Shown here: positions 42,013 through 59,836 of the stretch, in pieces | Numbering within the stretch: position 1 is the first letter of the stretch | How the letters are laid out: every line of letters starts with the position of its first letter | Assembly (NCBI GenBank): GCA_028871455.1 | Contig: JAGWNF010000019.1 | Span: 1 to 59,836, forward strand | Length of the DNA: 59,836 bases | From: Alphaproteobacteria bacterium | GTDB taxonomy: Bacteria > Pseudomonadota > Alphaproteobacteria > ATCC43930 > CGMCC-115725 | Direction of reading: 5' to 3' | The notes under the pieces: generated by a model | Database searches by the model: none | Seen by the model: the letters and a program-made list of their open reading frames with translations, nothing else | What the model was told of the DNA's origin: nothing | Position numbers and translations under genes: made by a program

Positions 42013-42363
42013 ATGGAATCGATTTGGACGTCTGAACTCGTGCAGAACCTTGCCCGACTCTGGGACGAGGGGCACTCGACGGCCGAGATCGGCCGCCGGC
42101 TCGGGGTCAGCAAGAACGCCGTGGTGGGGAAGGCGCATCGGCTGGCCCTGACGCCGCGGCCTTCGCCGCTCAAGCGTCCGCCGTTGCGTCGACCGGCGGC
42201 ACCTGCGGTGGCGACCGGCAGCGGCAGCTGCTCCTGGCCGACAGGACATCCCGGCGACAAGGACTTCGGCTTCTGCGGCAAGCGCACGCTCGCTGGCAAA
42301 CCTTATTGTGCCGAGCATGCGGCGATGGCCTATGTGCGGCCGAAGAATCACAACGCCGCCTGA
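42013..42363 (+). CDS. gcrA: GcrA cell-cycle regulator
   Basis: A 116-residue GcrA, an alphaproteobacterial sigma-70 cofactor that reads CcrM-methylated GANTC sites. The N-terminal HTH is WTSELVQNLARLWDEGHSTAEIGRRL followed by VSKNAVVGKAHRL. The C-terminal sigma-binding domain has SCSWPTGHPGDKDFGFCG, then PYCAEHAAMAY, with its conserved Cys and His. The linker is short, making the protein smaller than the ~170 residues of Caulobacter GcrA. I chose ATG 42013 with GGGGG eight bases upstream. It ends 24 bases before a strong convergent terminator. Confidence 0.93.
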   Translation: MESIWTSELVQNLARLWDEGHSTAEIGRRLGVSKNAVVGKAHRLALTPRPSPLKRPPLRRPAAPAVATGSGSCSWPTGHPGDKDFGFCGKRTLAGKPYCAEHAAMAYVRPKNHNAA

Positions 42364-42387
42364 ACCGACCTGAGACCAGCCAAGCGG

Positions 42388-42423
42388 ACGCTCCCGGCGT
42401 CAACGCCGGGAGCGTTTGCGTTT
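42388..42423. terminator. Bidirectional terminator between gcrA and the SNase-like gene
   Basis: A 13-bp perfect inverted repeat, ACGCTCCCGGCGT (42388-42400) and ACGCCGGGAGCGT (42403-42415), is separated by two bases and followed by TTGCGTTT. The genes on either side converge here. Confidence 0.75.
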
Positions 42424-43454
42424 CAGCGGAAGCGCCATAGGCCGCGGTGCGCCGAACGCGCGGCGCCTTCGGCGGGAAGATAGTCGTAGCTCTGCGCCGA
42501 ATCGGCAAGCGCGAGACCCTCGATAACGAGGAAGCGGCCGAGATCGTTGCCCTGCTCGTCGAGACAGATGGCGCCGAGCGTGCCGTGTTGGCCCGGTGGC
42601 ACGCGACAGGCGACGATTGAATGGCCAGCGAGCTTGTGGGCGAGCGTCGCTTGGGCGAGCGCGGCACATGACGTCGGCTTGCCGTTCGTCCCGGCGCAGC
42701 GGTCCTGTGGTTCGGCCGACTTAACACCAAAAAGAGCGACGGTCTGACCCTGCACATCGAGAGTCAACGGACCGGCGGCACGCGCATGGCCGCTGAAGAC
42801 CGCGGAAGCCATGAGCGGCGCGAAGCCTTCAGCACGTGGCGGCGCGGCGGTCGCGACCGCGGATGGCGATGGGCTCGGCGTCGATCGCGGTGCCGGCGCG
42901 GCGGGCACGATGGTGAAGGTATGGCCGTTACGCTCGCTCATCGTCACGGCGCCGAACCGCTTGGTGTCACGTTCGCTTGGCACGACGTGGAAGCCCGGCG
43001 ACGCGACCGCGACGGTCGGCAATTCGGGCACGGCCGGGGTCATCGGGGTCGACCCGGGCGACGTTGACGGCGCTTGTGGCGGCAACTGCACCGGCGGCGC
43101 CGGCGATGGCGCCAGAGGCGCCACGAGGATGAGGGCTTTGTTGCCCGACGGCACCGAACGCAGCAACTCCGGCGGTGACTTCGGCGGGGGTGCGGGCGCC
43201 GTGCTCACAACGCTGGGCGCGGCTTTCGACGACGACGGCGCAGCGGGCATACCGGCTTTCATGGCCGGCTTAGGCACCGCGGCTACCGGCGGCGTCGCCG
43301 GCATCGGGTTGGGTTTACGATGGTGTTCGATGACGGCGACCGACGCCGCGGCGATGAGGCCGACGCCCAAGACGACCGGTCCCCATTTGCGCAGCGTCAG
43401 GCCGCGGGCATGCCGAATCCAGGCCTTGCGGATCGGTTGGTTTTCGCTTGACAT
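42423..43454 (-). CDS. Membrane-anchored protein with degenerate thermonuclease (SNase-like) domain
   Basis: A 343-residue protein. A basic N-terminal tail leads to one membrane helix (~25-42; GPVVLGVGLIAAASVAVI), a long Pro/Ala/Ser linker (~45-225) and a C-terminal SNase-like fold (~228-343) ending DYLPAEGAARSAHRGLWRF. Against staphylococcal nuclease, the usual VRLxGIDAPE reads VALFGVKSAEP and the usual DxYGRxxA reads GQHGTLGAI, so both catalytic Arg and the metal Asp look lost. It probably binds rather than cuts nucleic acid or protein. A Cys pair (DRCAGTNGKPTSC) may be a disulfide, consistent with a periplasmic location. It converges on gcrA and diverges from tatA. Confidence 0.7.
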   Translation of the reverse strand: MSSENQPIRKAWIRHARGLTLRKWGPVVLGVGLIAAASVAVIEHHRKPNPMPATPPVAAVPKPAMKAGMPAAPSSSKAAPSVVSTAPAPPPKSPPELLRSVPSGNKALILVAPLAPSPAPPVQLPPQAPSTSPGSTPMTPAVPELPTVAVASPGFHVVPSERDTKRFGAVTMSERNGHTFTIVPAAPAPRSTPSPSPSAVATAAPPRAEGFAPLMASAVFSGHARAAGPLTLDVQGQTVALFGVKSAEPQDRCAGTNGKPTSCAALAQATLAHKLAGHSIVACRVPPGQHGTLGAICLDEQGNDLGRFLVIEGLALADSAQSYDYLPAEGAARSAHRGLWRFR

Positions 43455-57794: not shown

Positions 57795-57850
57795 CCGATT
57801 TCTCCCGCGTGGTTTATTTCCGCCAACCCTAATTTCCGGGAACTATCCGG

Positions 57851-57879
57851 TTGACGTACCAAGTCCCAAGTGCTAGGGT
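57851..57879 (+). promoter_or_regulatory. Sigma-70-type promoter for the IS1595 transposase
   Basis: TTGACG (57851-57856), a 17-base spacer and TAGGGT (57874-57879) fit a sigma-70 promoter, ending 26 bases before the transposase ATG. Confidence 0.5.
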
Positions 57880-57905: not shown

Positions 57906-58844
57906 ATGGATACTAAGCTTGATCTTCGCAACCCGATCTATAACGACGATGACGCCGCTAGAGCGCATCTCGAAACCCTGCTCTGGCCACAAGGCCCGAC
58001 CTGCCCGCGCTGCGGCGTTACTGGCGACCGCGTAACCAAGCTCCAAGGCAAGTCAACCCGTCCGGGCGTCTACAAGTGCAAGGACTGCCGCAAGCCCTTC
58101 TCTGTGACCGTCGGCACCGTCATGGAGCGGTCGCATATCCCGTTGTCCAAGTGGGTACTGGCGGCGCAACTCATGGCTTCGAGCAAGAAGGGCATGAGCG
58201 CCCTGCAACTGCAACGGATGATCGGCACCAATTACGAAACCGCGTGGTTCCTGTTCCATCGGCTCCGTGAGTGTGCGCCGGACCCGTCATCGGCTGGTCC
58301 GATCGGCGGCAAGAACCGCGTGGTTGAAGCCGATGAAACCTATGTGGGCGGCAAAGAGGCTAACAAGCATCCCAACAAGCGGTTGCGCCAAGGTCGCGGT
58401 CCGGGCGGCAAGCAAGTTGTTGTCACACTCGTTGAACGCGACGGCGAGGCTCGGTCATTCCATGTCGCCAACGTCAACCAAAAGACGCTTCGGCCGATCA
58501 TCGTCAAACATGCCAGCCGCAAGTCCGCGCTAATGACGGACGAAAGCACGATCTATCCGAAGATCGGTGAGGAATTCGCCAGCCATCATTCGGTCAATCA
58601 CTCGCACGAGGAATACGTCCGGCTCGCCGGCTTCGCTCATACGAACACCGTCGAAAGCTATTTCGCGGTGCTAAAGCGCGGTGTGTACGGCACGTTCCAC
58701 AACATCAGCGAAGCCCACTTGGCGCGGTATCTGCGCGAATTTGATTTCCGCTACAACACGCGCAAGATCAGCGATGCAGAGCGTAGCGAGGCCTTATTGC
58801 GCGGCGCACAAGGCAAGCGGTTGCTCTACCGACAGCCTGACTAA
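57906..58844 (+). CDS. IS1595-family (ISXO2-like) transposase
   Basis: A 312-residue transposase. An N-terminal zinc-ribbon has CPRCG and, ~30 residues later, CKDCRKPF. The catalytic ISXO2-like domain has VVEADETYVGG (first Asp), MTDESTIY (second Asp) and HTNTVESYFAVLKRGVYG near the end. It looks full length and intact. The terminal repeats of the element could not be located by eye. Downstream small genes are probably passengers, as is common in this family. Confidence 0.92.
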   Translation: MDTKLDLRNPIYNDDDAARAHLETLLWPQGPTCPRCGVTGDRVTKLQGKSTRPGVYKCKDCRKPFSVTVGTVMERSHIPLSKWVLAAQLMASSKKGMSALQLQRMIGTNYETAWFLFHRLRECAPDPSSAGPIGGKNRVVEADETYVGGKEANKHPNKRLRQGRGPGGKQVVVTLVERDGEARSFHVANVNQKTLRPIIVKHASRKSALMTDESTIYPKIGEEFASHHSVNHSHEEYVRLAGFAHTNTVESYFAVLKRGVYGTFHNISEAHLARYLREFDFRYNTRKISDAERSEALLRGAQGKRLLYRQPD

Positions 58845-58898
58845 GCCGCGAACGCCAAAGCAAATTGCTCGGTCGTTTCTGAGCTGGAGGGGAAAACG

Positions 58899-59177
58899 AT
58901 GACAAGCAAGATGCAGTTGTCGGCAGCACAATTCGTTTTGGTTCTGCTATTTCTCAATACGAGCGCGGCGCGTGCCGCGACAGACTTCGCATGTGTCAAC
59001 GACTGCACGAGCCGAGGTTATCAATATAACTACTGCATCGCGCGTTGTTCCTACGCTAGTCCGGTACCGGCTCCGCAGCCACTCGTTCAGCCGCACGGCA
59101 CAGATTACAAGTGCGTCAATGACTGCACGCGGAACGGCTACCTCTATCAATACTGCGTCCAATCCTGCTCATATTGA
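58899..59177 (+). CDS. Small secreted protein with two twin-CX3C repeats
   Basis: A 92-residue protein with a signal peptide (~1-26, ending NTSAARA). The mature part is two near-identical repeats, ACVNDCTSRGYQYNYC...CSY (31-52) and KCVNDCTRNGYLYQYC...CSY (71-92). Cysteines at 32/36/46/50 and 72/76/86/90 give C-x3-C-x9-C-x3-C twice, with a 40-residue period. The linker is Pro-rich. The pattern suggests two disulfide-pinned helical hairpins. GGAGGGG seven bases before the ATG is a strong ribosome site. It lies 54 bases after the transposase and is probably a passenger gene. Its function is unknown. Confidence 0.75.
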   Translation: MTSKMQLSAAQFVLVLLFLNTSAARAATDFACVNDCTSRGYQYNYCIARCSYASPVPAPQPLVQPHGTDYKCVNDCTRNGYLYQYCVQSCSY

Positions 59178-59241
59178 TTAGTCGTAGCCAGTAGATTGAC
59201 TCTCACGTATTGCAGCGATCTAATTTAATTCTGACATGCGA

Positions 59242-59266
59242 ACGGCCGGGTTAGAGGCCCGGCCGT
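59242..59266 (+). terminator. Strong GC hairpin, possible terminator of the cysteine-repeat gene
   Basis: ACGGCCGGG (59242-59250) and CCCGGCCGT (59258-59266) make a perfect 9-bp stem with a 7-base loop, 64 bases after the stop. No T-run follows, so it may instead be the first helix of the structured stretch. Confidence 0.45.
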
Positions 59267-59270
59267 CGCT

Positions 59271-59370
59271 TCCGAAAGGCTTACACGGAGCCGCTTCGGA
59301 CGATCCATAGATCGCAAGAATCCTAGGATTCTTAAAGGGTTAGGTCAAGCGGCTCCTTTGGACCAAGGAG
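59271..59370. repeat. Nested and mutually exclusive inverted repeats: candidate structured RNA or transposon-end element
   Basis: GGAGCCGCTT (59287-59296) pairs with AAGCGGCTCC (59347-59356). Between them lie CGATC-CATA-GATCG (59301-59314) and AAGAATC-CTAG-GATTCTT (59316-59333), giving a three-way junction. Competing helices are TCCGAA (59271-59276) with TTCGGA (59295-59300), extended by GGC/GCC, and CTCCTT (59353-59358) with AAGGAG (59365-59370). Both reuse the strands of the closing 10-bp helix, so the element could switch between folds. Confidence 0.5.
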
Positions 59371-59472
59371 ACTGCATTGATCAAATGTCGCCCTGAACGT
59401 ATCTCCCCGAGTCGTCCCAAAACGGTCAGCGTGCGCCCACACAAGCGGTCGCGCGGTCGGCGTATTCGCCGT

Positions 59473-59613
59473 TCATGCTGCCGATGATTTCTTCGTAATC
59501 GGTTTGCGTTTCCGGCGCTTTACAGATTGGCGCGTTTGATCGCGTGAGGTTGGCTTTGTTTTCAAAAGCCGTAGCAGCAACGCATCGCGGCGCTGGCCAT
59601 CATCGTTTCCCAT
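59473..59613 (-). CDS. Small basic protein, unknown function
   Basis: A 46-residue frame from ATG 59613. A short amphipathic helix (NDDGQRRDALLLRLLKTKP) is followed by a Lys/Arg-rich tail (KRRKRKPITKKSSAA). I recall similar short proteins with an RML/RLL-x-T-x-P helix in alphaproteobacteria. It has no strong ribosome site and faces the cysteine-repeat gene. An in-frame ATG at 59658 would add 15 residues. It could be another passenger of the mobile block. Confidence 0.4.
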   Translation of the reverse strand: MGNDDGQRRDALLLRLLKTKPTSRDQTRQSVKRRKRKPITKKSSAA

Positions 59614-59689
59614 AAAGTGAGGATAGCATGTCGAGGGGGAAGCGTCACAAGCCAACAATACGGGACTTAAGCAGACAGATTCCGACGAC

Positions 59690-59836
59690 TGGCCTGCTGC
59701 CGGTTCGGTTGACAGCCGCTTAAGCTAATCCCGCCTTCATCTCGAACTCCATAGGGCTCATATATCCGATTGTCGAATGCCGGCGTTTCGGATTGTAGAA
59801 GCGCTCGATGTAATCGAACACATCGGCCTTAGCCTC
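59690..59836 (-). mobile_element. IS3-family insertion sequence, one end (rest outside window)
   Basis: The C-terminal end of an IS3-type OrfB is cut by the window edge. TGGCCTGCTGCCGG starting at 59690, about 30 bases beyond the OrfB stop, resembles IS3-group terminal repeats (TG start, CCTGC), so the element probably ends near 59690. The matching repeat is outside the window, so the exact boundary is inferred. Confidence 0.55.
59720..59836 (-). CDS. IS3-family transposase OrfB, C-terminal 38 residues (partial)
   Basis: On the minus strand the frame enters at the window edge and reads DVFDYIERFYNPKRRHSTIG, then YMSPMEFE, and stops at TAA 59720-59722. This is the standard C terminus of IS3-family integrase-core transposases (rve domain, after the catalytic Glu). 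The rest lies outside the window, so intactness cannot be judged. Confidence 0.9.
   Translation of the reverse strand, partial: EAKADVFDYIERFYNPKRRHSTIGYMSPMEFEMKAGLA

Follow-up and report, generated by a model that had tools for sequence, protein, structure and literature searches.

A strongly folded segment behind a promoter-like site, a candidate structured RNA in the cargo slot of an IS1595-family transposon

The window, that is, the whole stretch of 59,836 nucleotides analysed here (positions 1 to 59,836 of the alphaproteobacterial contig JAGWNF010000019.1), carries an IS1595-family transposon. Its left 8-bp target duplication, TAATTTCC (57830..57837), is matched by the same 8 bases beyond the right end (G000:C43:844-851); the left terminal inverted repeat occupies 57838..57861 on the plus strand, and the right repeat lies on contig G000:C43, ending at 843. 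The transposase gene (57906..58844, plus strand) encodes a protein of 312 aa with an IS1595 DDE domain (PF12762, E 1.5e-41) and a zinc ribbon (PF12760, E 9.8e-13). According to PMC8101967, an 8-bp duplication and a single transposase gene are usual for the IS1595 family, and the host element shows the family features of DDE domain plus zinc ribbon, inverted ends and 8-bp duplication, in which it resembles IS1595 elements with passenger genes. Unlike the family as described in PMC8101967, it has two cargo positions, a small gene on the minus strand and a structured segment.

Behind the transposase, the slot holds a cargo gene (58899..59177, plus strand) for a Cys-rich protein of 92 aa, which has a signal-like N-terminus by eye and no Pfam family above the cut-off. 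The structured segment (59231-59392, plus strand) follows about 1.4 kb inside the left end of the transposon, then a small gene conserved in related transposons (59473..59613, minus strand; 46 aa here from ATG), and then the start of a second cargo gene (59628..59694, plus strand; frame by eye), which is broken after 59694 by another insertion sequence that splits the transposon and has GGCC on both sides. The start of the small gene is only 14 bases from the divergent cargo ATG at 59628, so that little room is left for a promoter of the second cargo gene itself. The interrupting insertion sequence (59695-59836), which looks IS3-type by eye, has nine near-identical stretches (98-100%) at the ends of G000 contigs, and two weaker matches lie within contigs.

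The order of transposase, conserved minus-strand small gene and plus-strand cargo is also present in 14 related elements. The slot between transposase and small gene was read as empty in L021, L023, L043, L053, and L054, and as occupied by differing open frames in the remaining nine; in the window it holds the 92-aa gene and the structured segment. L021-L023, L043-L049, and L052-L055 are IS1595-type transposons with two variable cargo positions, several of which possess a second small minus-strand frame, EIEITPEMIEAG-like, near the right end, and the cargo of L021 and L047 resembles DUF4145 weakly, below the cut-off. The small minus-strand gene at 59473-59613, with the motif QRRDxLLLRLLKTPPQPRPKRER, is common to the transposon group and belongs to no Pfam family; when 15 sequences are compared in pairs across 23 codons, the three codon positions show 771/478/1416 differences, which indicates that it is protein-coding. 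The +1 frame past the transposase stop (58815-58902) is conserved as well, with SLTKPRTPKQ..R.FL.WR read in the window and at least 12 of 17 relatives, which may reflect programmed frameshifting or the presence of a small overlapping gene; L046, L048, and L049 have an alternate tail in common, while L023 and L051 are divergent.

Helices had been claimed at 59242-59370 in a preliminary description of this DNA, and they are present. The helix listing gave 12 perfect helices of at least 5 bp within 59225-59400, six of which matter here (P1-P6, all on the plus strand). P1 (59242-59250/59258-59266, 9 bp) is a GC-rich hairpin that looks like a terminator hairpin without the T run. P2 (59271-59276/59295-59300, 6 bp) is the hairpin of regions 1:2; P3 (59287-59296/59347-59356, 10 bp), regions 2:3, is the closing helix of the preliminary description and the alternative to P2 and P6. 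P4 (59301-59305/59310-59314, 5 bp) and P5 (59316-59322/59327-59333, 7 bp) are further hairpins, 59316-59333 being a perfect 18-base palindrome. P6 (59353-59358/59365-59370, 6 bp; extended form 59343-59382), regions 3:4, pairs AAGGAG and TTG. One strand is common to P2 and P3 and another to P3 and P6, in agreement with the proposal that alternative helices reuse the same strands.

A helix of at least 10 bp arose in 26 of 3000 composition-matched shuffles and in 25 of the 796 real 151-mers of the window, and the chained pattern (three helices of at least 6 bp with shared strands) in 23 of 3000 shuffles but in 104 of the 796 real 151-mers of the GC-richer window. Five or more 6-bp helices were reached by 188/3000 shuffles and ten or more 5-bp helices by 1072/3000. 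The bare helix count is ordinary, and it is the 10-bp helix and the chained pattern that are unusual for the composition of the segment. The GC content is 55.6% in the structure, 38.5% in the 52 bases before it, 53.4% in the slot gene and 65.8% in the window.

Folding of 59230-59380, which the preliminary description had called for on both strands, gave a strong structure on each, the plus strand being somewhat better (-72.4 kcal/mol, z -6.31) than the minus strand (-64.7 kcal/mol, z -5.71), with none of 200 shuffles as good in either case. Among the borders tried, 59231-59392 on the plus strand gave the best z (-7.21, -78.4 kcal/mol, 0/200 shuffles), far beyond the shuffles, and its ends pair (59232-59237/59385-59390). 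The minus strand of the segment folded as DNA has z -5.45. Among 800 stretches of 150 nt from both strands, four of them extra starts placed by hand in the structured region, 59230 on the plus strand ranks third. Nine high-ranking stretches were viewed, and 59230 alone has no covering stop-free frame of at least 90 codons; stop-free frames of between 197 and 891 codons span the other eight. Elsewhere in the window, 42301-42450 on the minus strand (z -6.58) contains a 12-bp GC hairpin under a stop-free frame of 197 codons.

With the end held at 59380, moving the 5' start gave z values, rough owing to 60 shuffles per start, of -6.69 (59210), -5.07 (59231), -5.22 (59238), -2.70 (59245), -1.48 (59252), -2.99 (59266), -2.03 (59273), and -1.16 (59280). 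Much of the fold signal is supplied by P1, and the z-score alone does not mark 59231 as the 5' border.

In the predicted stable state, P1, P2, P4, P5 and P6 each form a hairpin of their own, P2 containing an inner helix and P6 being long, and the ends of the segment pair. The 10-bp helix of the proposed three-way junction exists, but the junction is not the predicted stable state: forcing P3 gives -60.2 against -71.5 kcal/mol for the stable fold, a penalty of about 11 kcal/mol. In a transcript growing from 59231, the predicted probability of P3 is 0.37 at 59360, reaches its maximum of 0.51 at 59366, where P6 is incomplete, falls to 0.13 at 59372, and is 0 from 59378 on and in the full transcript. 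AAGGAG (59365-59370) and TTG (59377-59379) are paired within P6, the mean unpaired probability of AAGGAG being 0.03 at 37 C. The end pairing has a probability of 0.68 in a transcript that reaches 59410, of 0.08 in one that reaches 59440 and of 0 in one that reaches 59472, whereas the hairpins persist; it is lost in the longer transcripts that a leader RNA requires. Of 5000 shuffles, 51 contain AAGGAG followed after 4-8 bases by a start codon, and 791 contain a less strict ribosome site of 5 bases together with a start codon. The TTG opens a frame of 36 aa (59377..59487, plus strand), which is probably no gene; a frame of 24 aa (59236-59310) runs across strands 1 and 2.

Just upstream of the structure lies a sigma-70-like site, TTGACT-N17-TCTAAT (59196..59224, plus strand), with an expected start at about 59231. 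It is the sole site in the window, on either strand, with at least 10/12 promoter matches (spacer 16-18, at least 4/6 in each hexamer), a score that 23 of 2000 shuffled versions of the AT-rich 58-nt stretch also attain. The 59196 site is missing from the output of a stricter scan, in which the second hexamer must have A as its second base; that scan reports a 9/12 site on the minus strand (59348-59320) inside the structure, against a chance expectation of 0.7 sites of this kind. No intrinsic terminator (GC hairpin plus T run) was detected within 58850-59700, P1 being the hairpin part only, and transcripts should therefore read through. The P1 pattern (GGCCGGG, 3-10 bases, CCCGGCC) has five places in the source genome, versus one for the reversed control; the other four all lie under stop-free frames of at least 80 codons and thus give no support for a terminator there.

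The preliminary description knew of no matching RNA family, and Rfam agrees at its curated thresholds: nothing rose above threshold with the whole window at the gathering threshold or with the region at a permissive one. The best sub-threshold match, PtaRNA1 (RF01811), is like the segment in a weak minus-strand match driven by P1 and unlike it in reaching 21.6 bits against the curated 47. In the DNA search (E 0.01, source genome counted), 3/39 genomes of the family, 3/43 of the order, and 5/385 of the class matched, the order and class samples overlapping; outside the source genome, in which the segment is single-copy, the matches span 22-29 bases only. A single-sequence covariance model including P1 (R1) matched 8/43 order genomes (E 0.1) and 9/385 class genomes (E 0.01), source included. 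Alignment of 14 distinct foreign R1 loci left P1 or pieces of P1 as the common part; L144 has a further loose similarity by eye (a piece of the P2 strand, and an ATG directly preceded by AAGGAGA), L145 a little, and L146-L148 are imperfect matches. P1 is the only part of the segment with look-alikes, some of which, by eye, have T runs or stand behind genes in other genomes. Without P1, the model (R2) matched the source genome alone (1/385 class and 1/43 order genomes).

Among the transposons, R1 run on 43 of 95 transposase loci and the window matched the window alone at E 1, and R2 run on 17 related loci, L041 and the window found the segment in none of the 17, the scan being partial for L042 and L050, whose sequence stops 254 and 551 bases behind the transposase. 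R2 also gave a match with E 0.43 in L022, outside that transposon. Phages gave no match at E 1; plasmids gave only two, which at E 0.9 are no better than chance and fall in 59442-59478, beyond the structure. Pattern searches of viral contigs with the segment returned none or unrelated sequences; seven contigs with GGTTAGGTCAAGCGGC have only that 16-mer in common by eye. No relic of another mobile element was seen in the genome, phage, and plasmid searches. The preliminary description would have counted a decayed insertion end found nowhere else against its reading; of this, the occurrence nowhere else holds for the collections covered (genomes, phages, plasmids, related transposons and viral-contig patterns).

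The 92-aa gene matched 6/42 other order genomes (E 0.01) and 3/384 others of the class sample (E 0.001), and none of the viral contigs. A link between the segment and this gene was rejected, the downstream sequences of L126, L127, and L132 being unlike the segment by eye; a motif filter caught these three of six loci and missed L128, L133, and L123, and L124, L125, and L129-L131 were left out. Three other candidates were also rejected. For a tRNA-like element (acceptor-like helix, 70 bases), ARAGORN predicted no gene anywhere in the window and a T arm could not be seen; for an integron attC site, GTTAGGT is present, but by eye no partner box; and a tiny MITE bounded by the 10-bp repeats has no flanking duplication by eye and no second copy in the source genome. 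In the literature on IS1595, noncoding RNA and structured RNAs with transposase, as far as it was covered, no title describes such an RNA in the family.

The 14 related elements were scanned for folds of their own (720 stretches, 15 shuffles per stretch), and the best were L054 5127 (z -8.44) and L048 5221 (z -7.23), both on the plus strand. By eye on the fold, L054 5150-5300 has two long hairpins and a third that lies beside and across the cargo gene's ribosome site; the fold has no R2 match and no Rfam family at threshold. A long inverted repeat also surrounds TATAAT before the cargo ATG in L054 5127-5300. This leader-like fold is unrelated to the segment, and it is a parallel, not proof.

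In erm-type translational attenuators, the strands pair in the order 1:2, 2:3, and 3:4, and strand 4 contains the ribosome site. The segment has the same pairing and the same place of the ribosome site, a pairing pattern that chance alone often produces in this window, and its predicted 24-aa frame overlaps strands 1 and 2 in a similar manner. Unlike these attenuators, it has no resistance or other clear gene behind the ribosome site, only the 36-aa frame, and the 24-aa frame lacks a ribosome site and, by eye, any recognisable stall motif. Like the structured RNA candidates of comparative genomics in PMC2864571, the segment is intergenic, strongly folded and GC-richer than its upstream flank; unlike them, as described there, it has no homologue found, while those rest on homologues.

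Judged from these predictions, an RNA role for the segment is plausible. We tentatively favour a promoter with a structured leader RNA, both being cargo that the IS1595-family transposon carries in its variable slot, and give this reading somewhat less than an even chance. A hairpin cluster formed by chance around a terminator-like hairpin is almost as likely as the RNA leader; here P1 would be a (weak) terminator hairpin behind the 92-aa gene, and the rest would be chance or a relic between convergent genes, without joint function. The single-copy segment found nowhere else in the collections searched, the P1 look-alikes with T runs or behind genes, the commonness of chained helices in the GC-rich window, and the far weaker folds that start behind P1 (z -2.99, -2.03, and -1.16) are all consistent with such a cluster. 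It accounts less well for the z of -7.2 of the whole, the perfect 10-bp helix and 18-base palindrome beside P1, the promoter-like site just upstream, the missing T run of P1, and the stop-free frames over the four other places of the P1 pattern in the source genome.

An independent small RNA, some 160 bases long and transcribed from the promoter at 59196, with a role in trans or on the transposon, would fit the paired ends, the compact multi-arm fold and the promoter-like site of its own, but no terminator-like site follows and it has no family, homologue or known target; we consider it unlikely, and a leader somewhat likelier than a free RNA because of the lack of a recognisable terminator and the little promoter room of the second cargo gene. 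The preliminary description had also offered a DNA structure recognised by the IS1595 transposase. As between RNA and transposase-bound DNA, the promoter-like site just upstream favours RNA, while the DNA structure is unsupported: the segment is far from both transposon ends, which are ordinary inverted repeats, and is absent from the 17 related loci (two partial). More broadly, a palindromic DNA element for the transposase or another protein, or the decayed end of another mobile element, is very improbable, since against the P5 palindrome and the good fold of the minus-strand DNA stand this position, the phage and plasmid results, and some G-U pairs of the plus-strand RNA fold that are impossible on the other strand.

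For the leader RNA, transcription would start near 59231, the RNA would probably fold as the separate hairpins P1, P2, P4, P5, and P6, and read-through would reach the second cargo gene at 59628; transcription of that gene from the transposase promoter is conceivable as well. With less support, a switch between P2 plus P6, with AAGGAG and TTG closed, and P3, with both open, might act like a translational attenuator; P3 being about 11 kcal/mol worse than the stable fold, it would need a stalled ribosome, a ligand or kinetics. Counting for the leader are the significance of the fold and its better plus strand, the position of the promoter-like site, the absence of the segment from the slots of the 17 related loci (two partial), the lack of a terminator-like site, the transient P3, the rarity of AAGGAG with a start codon in shuffles, and the L054 parallel. 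Counting against it are the lack of a homologue found, the frequency of the chained pattern in real 151-mers, the dominance of P1, a border at 59231 that is not singled out, a promoter-like site that the stricter scan misses while listing one on the minus strand inside the structure, the loss of the end pairing in transcripts that run to 59440 or 59472, the energy cost of P3, the shortness of the frame behind AAGGAG, the commonness of looser ribosome sites with a start codon in shuffles, and the broken state of the cargo gene to be served. A more far-reaching version, in which the segment represents a novel kind of leader RNA in IS1595-type cargo that would set the expression of neighbouring cargo through three-way alternative pairing, with unrelated leaders acting likewise in sister elements such as L054, we regard as distinctly improbable.

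For now, the segment is one orphan sequence that folds strongly and lies beside a good promoter-like site. Should it be transcribed, it would exemplify a regulatory RNA that a transposon carries along, and would suggest that regulatory modules, besides genes, occupy the accessory slots of IS1595-type elements.
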